NCBI RefSeq assembly: GCF_033025475.1
Contig: NZ_CP130322.1
Location: 2,054,001 to 2,118,000, forward strand
Direction: 5' to 3'
From: Sphingomonas sp. C3-2
GTDB lineage: Bacteria; Pseudomonadota; Alphaproteobacteria; Sphingomonadales; Sphingomonadaceae
Length of the DNA stretch: 64,000 bases
Shown here: positions 4,870 through 20,935 of the stretch, in pieces
How the letters are laid out: each line of letters starts with the position of its first letter
Position numbering within the stretch: the stretch's first letter is position 1
Program-made: the position numbers and the translations under genes
The notes under the pieces: model-generated
What the model saw: only the letters and a program-made list of their open reading frames with translations
Databases searched by the model: none
What the model was told of the DNA's origin: nothing

Positions 4870-6198
4870 TCAACCGAAGCTGGTCGATTCGAAGCGGACG
4901 GGTTCACCCACGGCCTGGTTGGCCAGTTGGGCTTCCCACATCACGCGGTTGCCGCGCACGATCGTGCCGACGGGCTTGCCGGTCAGCTTCATGCCGGTGA
5001 AGGGCGACCAGCCGCAGCGCGACGCCAGCCATTCCTCGGTCACGTCCCACTGCGCCTTGAGGTCGACGATGGTGAAATCGGCGTCATAGCCTGCGGCGAT
5101 CCGGCCCTTGCCCGAAAGCCCGAACACGCGCTGCGGCCCCGCGCTCGTCAGCTCGATCACGCGCTGGAGCGTGGTGCGCCCCTCGGCCACATGGTTGAGC
5201 ATCAGCGGCAACAGCGTCTGCACGCCGGGCATGCCGCTTGGGCTGTCGGGATAGGCCTTGGCCTTTTCCTCGATCGTGTGCGGTGCATGGTCCGATCCCA
5301 GCACATCGGGAACGCCCTGGTTGAGCCAGTGCCACAGCCCGTCGCGGTGCGCGGCGGAGCGGATGGGCGGGTTCATCTGCGCATAGGAGCCAAGGCGCGG
5401 ATAAGCGTCCTCGGCGGCGAGCGTCAGATGCTGGGGCGTCACCTCGCAGGTCGCGACGTCCTTGTGCTGCGCGATCAGCTCCAGCTCGGCCGGGGTCGTC
5501 ACGTGCAGGATATGGATGCGCCGCTTGGCCGCGCGCGCCAGCTTCAGGATGCGGCGCGTGGCGAGCATCGCGCTTTCATCGTCGCGCCAGACGGGGTGCG
5601 ACGCGGCATCGCCCGCGATGCGTTCGCCCTTGCGCGCGTTCATCCGTTCCTCGTCCTCGGCATGGATCGCGACGCGGCGATGGCCCGAGGCGAGCACGCG
5701 CGCGAGCTCGCTGTCTTCGGATACGAGCAGGTCGCCGGTCGAGGCGCCCATGAAGATCTTCACCCCCGCCGTGCCGGGCAGGCGTTCCAGCTCGGCCAGC
5801 GCGGGGGCGTTGGCGGCGGTGGCGCCGACGTAAAAGGCATGGTCGCACCACATGCGGTGATGCGCGCGCTTCAGCTTGTCGGCCACGGCATCGGCGCTGT
5901 CGGTGTTGGGCTTGGTGTTGGGCATTTCGAACACCGCGGTCACGCCGCCCAGCACCGCTGCGCGGCTCCCCGATTCGAGGTCTTCCTTCTGCTCCAGCCC
6001 CGGCTCGCGGAAATGGACCTGCGTGTCGATCACGCCGGGCAGGATATCGAGCCCGGTGCAGTCGATCACCTCGGCCGCGTCGCCATTTTCGCCGATCGCG
6101 ACGATCTTGCCGCCGCGCACGCCCACCGGCGCCTGAACCGGGCCGCCGGGGGTGTGGACGGTGCCGTTCTTGAGAAGAAGATCGAATGTCTGGGCCAT
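4870..6198 (-). CDS. pyrC: Dihydroorotase-family amidohydrolase with variant metal motif
   Basis: A 442-residue class I dihydroorotase-type enzyme, which in pyrimidine synthesis closes N-carbamoyl-aspartate to dihydroorotate. Family hallmarks are present: MPNTKP at about 92-97, GVKIFMG with the carbamylated lysine position near 147, VAIHAED near 179, HILHVTT near 235, and LGSDHAPHT with the catalytic Asp near 305. The first metal motif, normally DxHxHFREPG, reads DTQVHFREPG here, so the first His of the HxH pair is Gln60. This variant recurs, as far as I know, in other alphaproteobacterial members. No pyrB neighbour is present; the gene is divergent from ygfZ. Whether it is the housekeeping dihydroorotase or a paralogue such as a hydantoinase or allantoinase cannot be settled from sequence alone. 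Confidence 0.82.
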   Translation of the reverse strand: MAQTFDLLLKNGTVHTPGGPVQAPVGVRGGKIVAIGENGDAAEVIDCTGLDILPGVIDTQVHFREPGLEQKEDLESGSRAAVLGGVTAVFEMPNTKPNTDSADAVADKLKRAHHRMWCDHAFYVGATAANAPALAELERLPGTAGVKIFMGASTGDLLVSEDSELARVLASGHRRVAIHAEDEERMNARKGERIAGDAASHPVWRDDESAMLATRRILKLARAAKRRIHILHVTTPAELELIAQHKDVATCEVTPQHLTLAAEDAYPRLGSYAQMNPPIRSAAHRDGLWHWLNQGVPDVLGSDHAPHTIEEKAKAYPDSPSGMPGVQTLLPLMLNHVAEGRTTLQRVIELTSAGPQRVFGLSGKGRIAAGYDADFTIVDLKAQWDVTEEWLASRCGWSPFTGMKLTGKPVGTIVRGNRVMWEAQLANQAVGEPVRFESTSFG

Positions 6199-17155: not shown

Positions 17156-17506
17156 ATGGCGATATTTCCCCGTCCCGTTTCCCCGCGCAAGGCGATCCGC
17201 GATCTGCGTCTGTTTCTGGCGATGCGTCAGAAACATGAACTGATCTTCGGCTTCCTCTCGGTGGTCATCACCGCGCTTCTGATCGCCGGTTTCTATGTCG
17301 ATTCGCGCATCGACAAGCCGTGGAAGCGCGATGTCTTCTACGTCCAGAGCTGGCCGCTCGACCGCAGCCTTGAACAGATCAAGGCGCAGCAGGCGATCGA
17401 CATGAAGGAAAGGAAGAAGCGCGAGGCCGAGATGGAGGCCAAGCGGCAGGAACGCATGCGCCAGTTCCAGAAGGTCGAGAAACAGCTCGAAGCCATCGGG
17501 CTTTGA
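17156..17506 (+). CDS. Single-pass membrane protein with C-terminal coiled coil, coupled to ribD
   Basis: A 116-residue protein. I chose ATG 17156 (MAIFPRPVSPRKAIRDLR) because the open frame upstream looks noncoding. A basic N-terminus precedes one strong membrane helix (LIFGFLSVVITALLIAGFYV, about residues 30-50). The C-terminal third is highly charged and helical (KERKKREAEMEAKRQERMRQ). Its stop codon overlaps the TTG start of ribD by 4 nt (TTGA), so translation is probably coupled. Function is unknown; similar small proteins precede ribD in other sphingomonads as far as I recall. Confidence 0.75.
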   Translation: MAIFPRPVSPRKAIRDLRLFLAMRQKHELIFGFLSVVITALLIAGFYVDSRIDKPWKRDVFYVQSWPLDRSLEQIKAQQAIDMKERKKREAEMEAKRQERMRQFQKVEKQLEAIGL

Positions 17507-18474
17507 GCAACCCTGCGCGCTGGATGGCGGCGGCGCTCGCGCTGTCCGAGCGCGGACGCGGTCGCACCGCCCCCAATCCCAATGTCGGTTGCATCATCGT
17601 GTCCGGCGGCAGCGTCGTCGGGCGCGGCTGGACACAGCCCGGCGGCCGCCCGCATGCCGAGGCGATGGCGCTGGCCGAGGCGGGCGATGCCGCGCGCGGC
17701 GCCACCGCCTATGTCACGCTCGAACCCTGCGCGCATCAAAGCCCGCGTGGCCCCGCCTGCGCCGATCTGCTCGCCGCATCGGGGGTGGCGACGGTGCATG
17801 TCGCGCTGGGCGATCCCGATCCGCGCACCAATGGCAAGGGCATTGCGCGGCTGCGCGCGGCCGGCGTCGCGGTGCATGACGGGCTGCTCGCGGCCGAGGC
17901 GGCGCGCTTGATGGGCGGTTTCCTCATGCGCCAGCGCAGTGGGCGTCCGCTGGTGACGCTCAAACTCGCCACCTCGCTCGACGGGCAGATCGCGATGGCC
18001 GATGGCCGCAGCCGCTGGATCACCGGCGCTGCGGCGCGCGCGCACACCCATCTCGAACGCGCGCGGCACGAAATGATCCTGGTGGGGCGGGGCACCTATG
18101 ATGCCGATGCCCCCCGGCTCGACGTGCGTCTGGCCGGGCTCGAAGCGCGTAGCCCGCGCCGCGCGCTGCTCACCCGCGGCGTTGCCCCCGAAGGCTGGGA
18201 AGCGGTTGCCGCGCCCGGTGCCATCGGTGCGCTCGCCGGTGTCGATCATCTTTTCGTCGAGGGCGGTGCGCAGACGGCGGCGGCGTTTCTCGCCGCCGAT
18301 CGCGTCGATCGCCTGCTGCTCTACCGCGCGCCGATCCTGATCGGGCGGGGGCGCGCGGCTTTGGGCGATATCGGGCTCGCCGATCTGGCCGAGGCGCATG
18401 GTTGCTGGCGGCTGTGCGACACGCGCCTGCTTGGCAGCGACCGCATGGAAGTCTACGAGCGCGTCCGGATCTAG
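17503..18474 (+). CDS. ribD: Bifunctional pyrimidine deaminase/reductase of riboflavin synthesis
   Basis: A 323-residue RibD that performs the second and third steps of riboflavin synthesis from GTP: deamination, then NADPH-dependent side-chain reduction. The deaminase domain (1-145) carries the zinc motif HAEAMAL at 51-57 and EPCAHQSPRGPAC at 74-86. The reductase domain follows, starting around PLVTLKLATSLDGQIA. The start is TTG 17503, overlapping the previous stop; ATG 17524 is the alternative but would shorten the conserved N-terminus. GTP cyclohydrolase II (ribA) is not found in this window. Confidence 0.95.
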   Translation: MSNPARWMAAALALSERGRGRTAPNPNVGCIIVSGGSVVGRGWTQPGGRPHAEAMALAEAGDAARGATAYVTLEPCAHQSPRGPACADLLAASGVATVHVALGDPDPRTNGKGIARLRAAGVAVHDGLLAAEAARLMGGFLMRQRSGRPLVTLKLATSLDGQIAMADGRSRWITGAAARAHTHLERARHEMILVGRGTYDADAPRLDVRLAGLEARSPRRALLTRGVAPEGWEAVAAPGAIGALAGVDHLFVEGGAQTAAAFLAADRVDRLLLYRAPILIGRGRAALGDIGLADLAEAHGCWRLCDTRLLGSDRMEVYERVRI

Positions 18475-18501: not shown

Positions 18502-19107
18502 ATGTTCACGGGCATCATCACCGATATCGGCACCATCAAGAGCATCGAGCAGCGCGGCGACATGCGCGCGGTGATTGCCTGCAGCTATGACATGGCGGGC
18601 GTCGATCTCGGCGCGTCGATCGCCTGTTCGGGCGTGTGCCTCACCGTGGTCGACAAGGCGCCGGGCTGGTTCGCGGTCGATATCTCCGCCGAAACCATCT
18701 CGCGCACCGCGTCGGACCAGTGGCGCGCGGATGGCCGTCTCAACCTCGAACGCGCGATGAAGCTGGGCGAGGAACTGGGCGGGCATATCGTCACCGGCCA
18801 TGTCGACGGCGTCGGCACGGTCACCGGTCTCAGCGACGAAGGCGACTCGAAACGCGTCACGATTGCCGCCGGGCATGATCTGGCGCCCTTTATCGCGGCC
18901 AAGGGCTCGGTTGCGCTCGACGGCATCTCGCTCACCGTCAACAGCGTCACCGACACGGCCGAAGGCGTTGAATTCGGCGTGAACATCATCCCGCACACCG
19001 CCTCGGTCACGACGTTCGACGCGCTCGCCGAAGGGCGGCGCCTCAATATCGAGATCGACGTTCTGGCGCGTTATCTTGGCCGTATGCGTTCGGTTTTGGA
19101 AAAATAA
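18502..19107 (+). CDS. ribE: Riboflavin synthase alpha chain
   Basis: A 201-residue enzyme of two similar lumazine-binding domains. It begins with the invariant MFTGIITDIG; the first domain contains ACSGVCLTV and the second the repeat ALDGISLTVNSV, with GHIVTGHVDG between. It converts two 6,7-dimethyl-8-ribityllumazine molecules to riboflavin plus the pyrimidine precursor. AAGGGA lies 7 nt before ATG 18502. It follows ribD by 27 nt, evidently in the same operon. Confidence 0.97.
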   Translation: MFTGIITDIGTIKSIEQRGDMRAVIACSYDMAGVDLGASIACSGVCLTVVDKAPGWFAVDISAETISRTASDQWRADGRLNLERAMKLGEELGGHIVTGHVDGVGTVTGLSDEGDSKRVTIAAGHDLAPFIAAKGSVALDGISLTVNSVTDTAEGVEFGVNIIPHTASVTTFDALAEGRRLNIEIDVLARYLGRMRSVLEK

Positions 19108-19189
19108 TCGCGGTAAAAGGCGTTTGATCGTCGATGTTTCTACGCTTTGCGTAAGAATGTTGCGCCCTGTGTGAAATTTTCTGTTGGGC

Positions 19190-19207
19190 ATCACATTGCA
19201 ATGTGAT
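19190..19207. promoter_or_regulatory. 18-bp perfect palindrome just before the HTH-RibB start codon
   Basis: ATCACATTGCAATGTGAT is a perfect inverted repeat with no spacer. It ends 13 bp before ATG 19221. A weak TTGGGC (19184-19189) and TATTCG (19207-19212) sit either side at 17-bp spacing, so the palindrome could lie between -35 and -10. I found no FMN riboswitch-like structure in this 113-bp gap. It is the best candidate operator in the riboflavin locus. Confidence 0.6.
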
Positions 19208-19220
19208 ATTCGGTGTGGCC

Positions 19221-20510
19221 ATGAGCACCGAACTGATCGAACGCGTCCGCGACCTTGTTGCCGAAGGCGCCATCTCACGCTCCGGCCTCGCCCGCGCGGC
19301 CGGACTTCATGCCAATTCGCTTCGCCTGCTGGACGAGCCCGAGTGGAACCCCACCGCCGAAACGCTGCGCAAGCTCGAAAAATATCTGAAGCAGCGCGAA
19401 TCCGCGCCCGCGCTGGTCCCGATCGAAGAGATTATCGAGGAAGCGCGCAATGGCCGCATGTTCATCCTCGTCGACGATGAAGACCGCGAGAATGAGGGCG
19501 ATCTTATCATTCCCGCGCAGATGGCGACCCCGGCGGCGATCAACTTCATGGCCAAATATGGCCGCGGGCTGATCTGCCTCACGCTCACCAAGCAGCGCGT
19601 CAACCAGCTTGGCCTCAACCTGATGAGCCGCAACAACGGCACGCGCCACGAAACCGCCTTCACCGTCTCGATCGAGGCGCGCGACGGCGTCACCACGGGC
19701 ATTTCGGCGGGCGACCGCGCGCGCACCGTCGCGGTGGCGATCGATGCGTCGAAGGGCCCTGAGGAAATCGTCACCCCCGGCCATGTCTTCCCGCTGGTCG
19801 CGCGCGAAGGCGGCGTGCTCGTCCGCGCCGGGCATACCGAGGCGGCGTGCGACGTGTCGCGCCTGGCCGGCCTCAACCCGTCGGGCGTGATCTGCGAGAT
19901 CATGAAGGACGACGGCACCATGGCGCGCATGGACGACCTCGTCGAATTCGCGCACGAACATAATCTCAAGATCGGCACGATCCGCGATCTCATCGCCTAT
20001 CGCCGCCAGCACGATCACCTTGTCGAGAAAAAGGCAGAGGCGCGTTTCGAGAGCCGCTGGGGCGGCGAATGGACCGCCAATGCCTTTCTCAACAAGGCCA
20101 CCGGCACCGAGCAGATCGCGCTGGTCAAGGGCCGCATCGACCCCGACAAGCCCACGCTCGTGCGCATGCACGTGCTCTCGCCCTTCGCCGACCTTTTCGC
20201 CGAGGCCGACGAACGCGGCCGCCTGCTGCGCCGCTCGATGGAAATCATCGGTGCGGAAGGCGCGGGGGTGATCGTCGTCATCAACAAGCGCCGCGCAGAT
20301 TTCTTCACCACCTCGATCCAGGAAAAGGCGGGCATGCCCGCGCTCGATCCCGAGGAACTGCGCGATTACGGCGTCGGCGCTCAGATCCTCACCGAACTGG
20401 GCGTGCAGGACATGGAACTGCTCACCAACAGCCACCACACGCTGGTGGGGCTTGACGGCTACGGCCTTTCCATCGTTGGGCAGCGTCCAATCGACAGCGG
20501 AGAAGCTTGA
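19221..20510 (+). CDS. ribB: HTH-RibB-X fusion: DHBP synthase with N-terminal HTH and degenerate RibA-like domain
   Basis: A 429-residue three-part protein. Residues 1-60 form a Cro/CI-type helix-turn-helix ([20 protein letters not shown], then [14 protein letters not shown]). Residues about 63-270 are 3,4-dihydroxy-2-butanone 4-phosphate synthase, with the active-site acidic motif [10 protein letters not shown] at 86-95 and [16 protein letters not shown] further on; it makes the four-carbon unit for lumazine from ribulose 5-phosphate. The C-terminal 140 residues resemble GTP cyclohydrolase II but lack its zinc-binding cysteines, matching the RibBX variant described in Proteobacteria, in which the X domain has no cyclohydrolase activity. 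The N-terminal HTH is additional and suggests a DNA-binding or autoregulatory role. ATG 19221 was chosen over GTG 19203 because the palindrome and family start fit it. Confidence 0.93.
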
Positions 20511-20512
20511 TC

Positions 20513-20935
20513 ATGGCAAAATTTCTGATCGTGGAAGCACGGTTCTACGACCATCTGAACGACATGCTGCTCGACGGCGCGCGCACCGCGCTCGAAGCGG
20601 CCGGGCATACGCATGAAACCGTCACGGTTCCGGGCGCGCTCGAAATCCCCGCGGCCATCGCGCTTGCGGTCGATAGCGAGCGTTATGACGGCTATGTCGC
20701 GATCGGCGTCGTCATTCGCGGTGAAACCTATCACTTCGAAGTCGTCTCGAACGAAAGCGCGCGCGGCATCATGGCGCTCACGCTCGATGGCCTGCCGATC
20801 GGCAACGGCATCCTGACCGTCGAAAACGAGGCGCAGGCGCTCACCCGCGCCAAGCGTTCGGAAAAGGACAAGGGCGGCGAAGCGGCCAAGGCCGCGATCG
20901 CGATGCTCGAACTCCAGGCCCGTTTCCAGGCCTGA
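20513..20935 (+). CDS. ribH: 6,7-dimethyl-8-ribityllumazine synthase
   Basis: A 140-residue lumazine synthase that joins the pyrimidine from RibD with the four-carbon unit from RibB. It has [13 protein letters not shown] (about 38-50), the [18 protein letters not shown] region with the catalytic His, and GNGILTVEN. The start ATG 20513 is 2 nt after the RibB stop; a TTG overlapping that stop is less likely. It is the last gene of the riboflavin operon and is followed by a terminator. Confidence 0.96.

Follow-up and report, generated by a model that had tools for sequence, protein, structure and literature searches.

A riboflavin-synthesis enzyme of the Sphingomonadaceae carries a phage Cro-like DNA-binding domain and probably represses its own gene

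Results

The window analysed here is a 64,000-nucleotide stretch of the Sphingomonas sp. C3-2 genome (contig NZ_CP130322.1, positions 2,054,001 to 2,118,000), in which one riboflavin gene encodes an enzyme with an added DNA-binding domain: a Cro-like helix-turn-helix (HTH) joined to RibBX, a 3,4-dihydroxy-2-butanone 4-phosphate (DHBP) synthase with a degenerate RibA-like X domain. Comparison of sequences makes it likely that this HTH-RibBX is a Cro-like autorepressor enzyme that acts through a palindrome in its own promoter, probably also on ribH, and that it originated in a fusion of ribBX with the cro gene of a phage. Control of the gene by its own product, acting through the HTH, had been proposed in a preliminary description of the window and is strongly supported by footprinting across relatives, the operator being present or absent along with the HTH. 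Reading of the pathway state in the manner of RbkR, also proposed there, may occur but is not needed to account for the anatomy, which a ligand-free, Cro-type autorepressor would fit equally well. The link to phage Cro, which that description did not contain, is the most unusual part. The gene and its domains are:

19221..20510, plus strand: HTH-RibBX gene, 429 amino acids, Cro-like HTH, DHBP synthase and degenerate RibA-like X domain (Pfam, alignment)
19221..19400, plus strand: Cro-like HTH domain, residues 1–60 (alignment, family survey, phage relatives, model)
19425..20000, plus strand: DHBP synthase domain, residues 69–260 (Pfam PF00926, alignments to PDB 6mnz and 4i14)
20028..20489, plus strand: X domain, GTP-cyclohydrolase-II-like, without zinc cysteines, residues 270–423 (Pfam PF00925, alignment)

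The reading frame is uninterrupted. The Pfam model DHBP_synthase is covered in full (residues 69–260, E = 3e-84), so the domain is complete. The X domain is spanned by GTP_cyclohydro2 (residues 270–423, E = 8e-34), and its alignment to RibBA (PDB 4i14) shows none of the three cysteines of the stretch SECLTGDVFG..RCDCG; a separate RibA, above its curated cut-off, is encoded elsewhere in the same genome. The architecture first described, an HTH followed by a whole DHBP synthase domain and then by an X domain lacking the zinc cysteines, was thus borne out by Pfam, alignment and conservation, and the protein departs from a two-domain RibBX by the roughly 60-residue HTH added at its N-terminus. Within the HTH, the segments GLHANSLR (residues 28–35) and WNPT (residues 42–45) are conserved, and 18 columns are invariant across 18 sequences.

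In one family an HTH profile matched 335 of 397 genomes, which represent 71 of its 91 genera; this family is read as the Sphingomonadaceae because matches in named genomes fall in Sphingomonas, Sphingobium, Sphingopyxis, Sphingorhabdus and similar genera (best 80 of at least 550 matches, which also include metagenome-assembled genomes labelled only Alphaproteobacteria or Proteobacteria). Every match listed in the family survey sits in an open frame of at least 304 amino acids, and a second profile search of 50 chosen genomes, mostly lower scorers, again returned RibBX-sized frames, apart from short stand-alone relatives and one genome (G276; L145, L170, L173). In this genome the HTH-ribBX frame is broken within the RibB part, with matches to residues 3–190 and 178–425 in two frames, which may reflect a sequencing error or a real loss. 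Among 289 genomes of the class the profile matched 11, and the fusion was found in only four, all of the family. The seven matches outside the family lie in frames of 78–301 amino acids that are not RibBX (five of them were read); the best, L281, is a phage-type Cro-like gene, and another, L284, has 95 amino acids. In 13 of 16 genomes from the order's remaining families, the best match begins at residue 61–65, without the HTH, the other three giving no match, a fragment and RibB alone. The database survey for HTH-DHBP synthase proteins suggested in the preliminary description therefore returned a fusion that is widespread within one family and, among the class genomes, confined to it. On a tree of 66 HTH-bearing and 27 HTH-less RibBX the HTH label changes nine times (best tree), at least four of them on well-supported branches; an old gain followed by several losses may account for this pattern, although the counts do not distinguish gain from loss.

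The palindrome suspected upstream of the gene exists, and is a perfect 18-bp element with further candidate control elements around it:

19190..19207, strandless: predicted operator O1, perfect 18-bp palindrome ATCACATTGCAATGTGAT with its centre some 22 nt ahead of the ATG (sequence)
19169..19174, plus strand: half-site GTGTGA, which may be left over from a second operator; it lies 32 bp upstream of its O1 counterpart (spacing in relatives and, at 31 bp, in phage cro regions)
19184..19189, plus strand: putative −35 element TTGGGC, abutting O1 on the left (inference)
19207..19212, plus strand: putative −10 element TATTCG, 17 bp after the −35 element (inference, logo)

For 112 distinct HTH-bearing loci, out of 122 with the fusion and drawn from a subset of the 335 genomes, the 270 nt upstream of ribBX were searched for their closest match to TCACAT-N4-ATGTGA. 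Mismatches numbered 0, 1, 2 and 3 at 53, 42, 15 and 2 loci, so that 95 of the 112 have a site with no more than one mismatch, a quality reached once by shuffled controls (mononucleotide, n = 2240). Since the first 19 of the 112 were those in which the motif was noticed, a better test is provided by 68 further named loci, filtered to have no upstream sequence in common with the first set; there, 39, 26 and 3 loci had 0, 1 and 2 mismatches (65 of 68 at no more than one), and none of 80 coding windows used as control fell below four. HTH-less ribBX genes had no site with two or fewer mismatches (0 of 27 loci). These controls comprised seven loci from outside the family but within the order, and 20 loci of the family, in 19 genomes. 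Of the 62 HTH-negative genomes of the family, 20 were named, with ribBX found in 18, or 19 with genome G021.

Genome-wide, Sphingomonas sp. C3-2 has one exact site, at the HTH-ribBX gene, so that exact sites give no sign of a wider regulon. The sole exact site lies at ribBX in eight of nine HTH-bearing genomes compared, the ninth (G002) having a ribBX site with one mismatch. Six of seven HTH-less genomes are devoid of exact sites, and the remaining one, G021, carries a single one within a prophage. Overall, the operator accompanies the HTH, the two being present together and absent together at the loci compared. The next best operator-like site, TCACAGTGCGATGTGA, with one mismatch, occurs elsewhere in the C3-2 genome (G000:C1:85171-85186; L080, base 3172).

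Position is conserved along with sequence. The logo concentrates its information in the palindrome and the flanking A/T, with a weaker upstream half-site. When sites are ranked within each locus, the runner-up is located 31 or 32 bp upstream of the best one in 47 of 95 cases for the first set and in 46 of 68 for the second. The distance from operator centre to the first in-frame ATG is 20–22 nt in 66 of 95 and 54 of 68 loci, respectively. A palindromic candidate operator at its own promoter, with tandem spacing in its relatives, is a trait that HTH-RibBX shares with the phage Cro family.

Among stand-alone proteins, the HTH is most closely related to small Cro-like proteins of prophages and viral contigs, the closest of which are encoded divergently from CI-like repressors and have palindromic operators. 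One such prophage, in genome G021 (L077, G021:C1:210000-222000; the same prophage as IMG/VR locus L256), encodes a 68-amino-acid HTH protein that is 46% identical to the HTH of the window (40–57% to the six HTH-RibBX compared) and whose gene is divergent from that of a CI-like protein with an S24 peptidase domain. TCACAT-N4-ATGTGA occurs four times in its 12-kb region with no more than one mismatch, where 0.01 occurrences would be expected, at positions 5373, 5404, 8152 and 8183 of L077. The sites form two pairs, each with a spacing of 31 bp; one pair precedes the cro-like gene, and the other precedes genes of the minus strand, among them that of a RecE-like exonuclease, an arrangement that recalls OR and OL of phage lambda. 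Both RibBX copies of G021 lack the HTH, which in this one case points to a possible incompatibility with the prophage.

Other phage loci have different operators: those of L264, L265, L266 and L152, whose layout is similar, are of GCATAT type, and those of L261, L268, L079 and L281 are of CGCAT type. The operator centre lies 21 nt from the ATG in L256, L264, L265 and L266, and the tandem operators are 31 bp apart in L077/L256, L264, L265 and L266. Of three divergent repressors tested for an S24 domain, two exceeded the Pfam cut-off (L077 and L078, the L266 prophage) and one fell below it (L265). Because the geometry of operator, start codon and domain is shared, as is the operator type, ribBX appears to have acquired the 5' portion of a cro gene from a phage, along with its control region. 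Six further relatives (L257, L260, L262, L290, L291, L294) do not all have a clear CI neighbour or the same operator; the L152 protein, scanned against viral contigs, found no relative there, and one candidate, L292, looks unrelated and was set aside.

The recognition segment and the operator tend to change together among the loci compared. LHxN[ST]LR goes with TCACAT (HTH-RibBX and L256), HxNTL[LY]G or LHPNTLLG with GCATAT (L264, L265, L266, L152), and DT[TV]LR with CGCAT (L261, L268, L079, L281). The second HTH-RibBX copy of genome G316 (L124, around base 500), which was missed by the sequence filter and treated apart from the HTH-bearing set, has GLDSSTLR in place of GLHANTLR and no TCACAT site (best match, five mismatches), possibly a natural change of specificity. 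Within the phage Cro-like proteins of WNPT type (L264–L266, L152, L261, L268, L079, L281), half-sites tend to change with the segment.

Around O1, a TTG lies 14 or 15 nt left of the operator centre in 51 of 95 relatives, and positions +8/+9 are often TA. In 72 of 95 the first in-frame ATG is 18–26 nt from the operator centre, and a Shine-Dalgarno-like 4-mer occurs in seven of these 72. The putative promoter boxes would flank the operator, and the mRNA would perhaps start at or near the ATG, leaderless, an arrangement that would leave no room for a riboswitch.

The gene lies in the order ribD-ribE-[HTH-ribBX]-ribH, and the neighbours were confirmed with Pfam:

17503..18474, plus strand: ribD, upstream (Pfam PF00383 and PF01872)
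18502..19107, plus strand: ribE, riboflavin synthase, upstream (Pfam PF00677)
20513..20935, plus strand: ribH, lumazine synthase, directly downstream (Pfam PF00885)

By tblastn against 80 named relatives, ribH follows HTH-ribBX in 65 and ribE closely precedes it in 35, so HTH-ribBX-ribH is the more conserved unit, and co-transcription of its two genes is probable.

Discussion

The proposed course of events is that, in an ancestor within the family, ribBX became joined to cro of a temperate phage, and that the fusion kept the promoter, operator, start codon and HTH of cro. The fused enzyme would bind the palindrome in its own promoter and so repress its own gene, and probably ribH too. RibB is a dimer in solved relatives, and such a dimer would hold two HTHs together. 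In its simplest version the circuit would be free of ligand and would hold the level of the enzyme constant. That everything captured from cro, from its promoter and operators to its start codon and DNA-binding domain, now forms one switch module, with the enzyme serving as its own Cro, is favoured as well, if less firmly than autorepression itself.

Several observations weigh against this reading. Scanned alone, the HTH stays below the curated cut-offs of Pfam (HTH_3, E = 0.12; HTH_26, E = 0.16) and NCBIfam (best, TIGR00270, E = 0.0014), and a PDB sequence search with its profile gave nothing significant (best E = 0.21). Structure prediction had been named in the preliminary description as a test of an HTH fold in residues 1–60: the isolated domain was modelled with a predicted local distance difference test (pLDDT) score of 85.7, and its best PDB fold matches are mostly of Cro/CI type (HipB, SinR, C proteins, 434 Cro; template modelling score about 0.6). 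The Foldseek E-values are 0.12 or worse and thus not significant, and DSSP assigned helices at 3–15, 20–27 and 46–61 and left the recognition helix unassigned; the full-length model is mediocre (pLDDT, 70; predicted template modelling score, 0.54). Fold comparison is in this way consistent with a relationship to stand-alone phage Cro-like proteins at a level short of significance.

Close relatives are also few in IMG/VR (7 and 8 loci, in overlapping sets), and only four weak matches were found among 50,697 GenBank phage records (best E = 1e-4). At the operator, 17 of the 112 loci have two or three mismatches, the site is farther from the ATG in about a quarter of loci, and support for the promoter boxes is weak, since no more than 51 of 95 loci have TTG where the −35 element would be. 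The relation of segment to operator was recognised post hoc and draws on some ten phage loci, L257 and L262 having LHxNTLR with only degenerate CACAT-like sites and L259 having DTTLR with a mixed CCCAT/ATGCG site. The RibBX tree offers just four well-supported independent differences in the HTH, of which the operator follows 3.5 on average, never in the opposite sense (p = 0.125). The tree of the HTH itself, built on 60 columns, does not recover HTH-RibBX as one clade against phage Cro, one clade not being rejected (approximately unbiased test, p-AU = 0.41), so that neither a single capture nor its direction is shown.

The HTH is nonetheless more than a chance resemblance, given its invariant columns, its presence in 335 of 397 genomes, weak matches to PHROGs for phage transcription regulators (best E = 6e-4) and the confidence of its model. 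The profile of the phage Cro-like proteins, for its part, matches the PDB sequences of HipB and SinR at E of about 1e-4.

Of the other explanations, the one that retains most weight is a sensor resembling archaeal RbkR, in which a ligand bound at RibB (ribulose 5-phosphate or DHBP) or at X (a flavin or nucleotide) sets the control of ribBX-ribH. This fits a Cro origin and adds ligand control to it, and it is a serious possibility held with less than even belief. An HTH is here fused to a biosynthetic enzyme, RbkR is tabulated as both gene regulator and enzyme (PMC8305020), and the X domain of the Shewanella oneidensis RibBX is reported to regulate RibB activity (PMC10012899). A Cro-type circuit, however, needs no ligand. 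The lack of an FMN (flavin mononucleotide) riboswitch at the locus had been correctly noted in the preliminary description: no hit in the window attained the gathering score, and the search of the C3-2 genome gave none. This would favour a sensor, yet it does not discriminate, because HTH-less relatives are also without one; under filters stricter than those of the window search, RF00050 was missing from 79 of 80 genomes sampled from the order, with or without the HTH. There is accordingly no sign of the HTH having replaced a riboswitch. The sole FMN riboswitch of this sample belongs to another family of the order (L076, G027:C1:1017386-1017534, minus strand) and adjoins an extra RibB-like match (1016625-1017275, minus strand).

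Activation in place of repression is improbable. CI-type proteins can activate, and the half-site 31–32 bp upstream in about half of the loci would suit an activator; the resemblance to Cro speaks for HTH-RibBX as a repressor. It is just as improbable that phages acquired HTH and operator from the bacterial gene, a direction for which there is room in that the 60-column tree leaves the root unfixed. Against it, both sequence and operator type vary more among the phage proteins, CI/Cro-like pairs stand on several contigs, and HTH-RibBX was met in one bacterial family only. Finally, it is very improbable that the operator is bound by another protein, such as a prophage repressor or stand-alone regulator, with the HTH a passenger: phage CI-like repressors presumably bind the operators of their Cro-like relatives, but operator and HTH occur together and are missing together, and as all but 7 of the 335 positive genomes have a single HTH-profile match, a stand-alone relative is usually absent.

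With no FMN riboswitch found in 79 of 80 genomes of the order, the fusion offers a testable answer, for a large family, to the question of how riboflavin synthesis is set. It also suggests that a metabolic enzyme may become an autoregulator in one step, through the takeover of a complete phage switch. Recognition segments with matching operators form a natural series for studies of HTH specificity, and because neither the operator nor the segment has departed from the phage type, cross-talk with riboflavin synthesis could arise, if the reading is true, from phages whose switches are of TCACAT type.

In the available part of a 2026 riboflavin review, the terms 'helix-turn-helix' and 'Sphingo' do not occur. 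The literature searched, consisting of titles and the beginnings of abstracts with subscription papers mostly outside it, described no HTH-RibB fusion, which does not establish its absence from print. RibBX, RbkR and Cro are each known, and what was not seen within that literature is a metabolic enzyme with both a cro-like domain and a cro-like operator.

With phage Cro and the CI/Cro regions of lambda and 434, HTH-RibBX shares the Cro/CI-type HTH and, in its relatives, tandem palindromic operators at the cro promoter, the divergent CI-like repressor being seen in the phage relatives. Cro is a small stand-alone protein encoded opposite a CI repressor, whereas this HTH is the N-terminus of a metabolic enzyme encoded between ribE and ribH, with no CI gene beside it and at most a half-site as second operator. 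BirA, PutA and NadR are also autoregulating enzymes with DNA-binding domains that repress genes of their own pathways; they differ in having other folds and known ligands, and carry no phage operator along with them. RbkR controls several rib genes, whereas one exact operator is present here. It is likewise a riboflavin-pathway enzyme with an N-terminal HTH, and is an archaeal riboflavin kinase where the present enzyme is a DHBP synthase. Like HTH-RibBX as proposed here, it is listed as both regulator and enzyme (PMC8305020). Unlike rib genes under FMN-riboswitch control, the gene has no RF00050 element upstream. RibBX itself was reportedly treated by Brutinel et al. in 2013. As far as the accessible text of PMC10012899 goes, RibBX corresponds to the present protein in its DHBP synthase, its X domain without zinc-binding residues and its place in a rib operon, and differs in that no N-terminal HTH appears there or in the aligned 6mnz (titled RibBX of Acinetobacter baumannii), HTH and operator being additions here. 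A parallel within the alphaproteobacteria is the rib operon of Caulobacter, which is under riboswitch-free transcriptional control by Fur and IscR (PMC11475020); there the regulators are separate, iron-responsive proteins, whereas here the regulator would be the enzyme itself.
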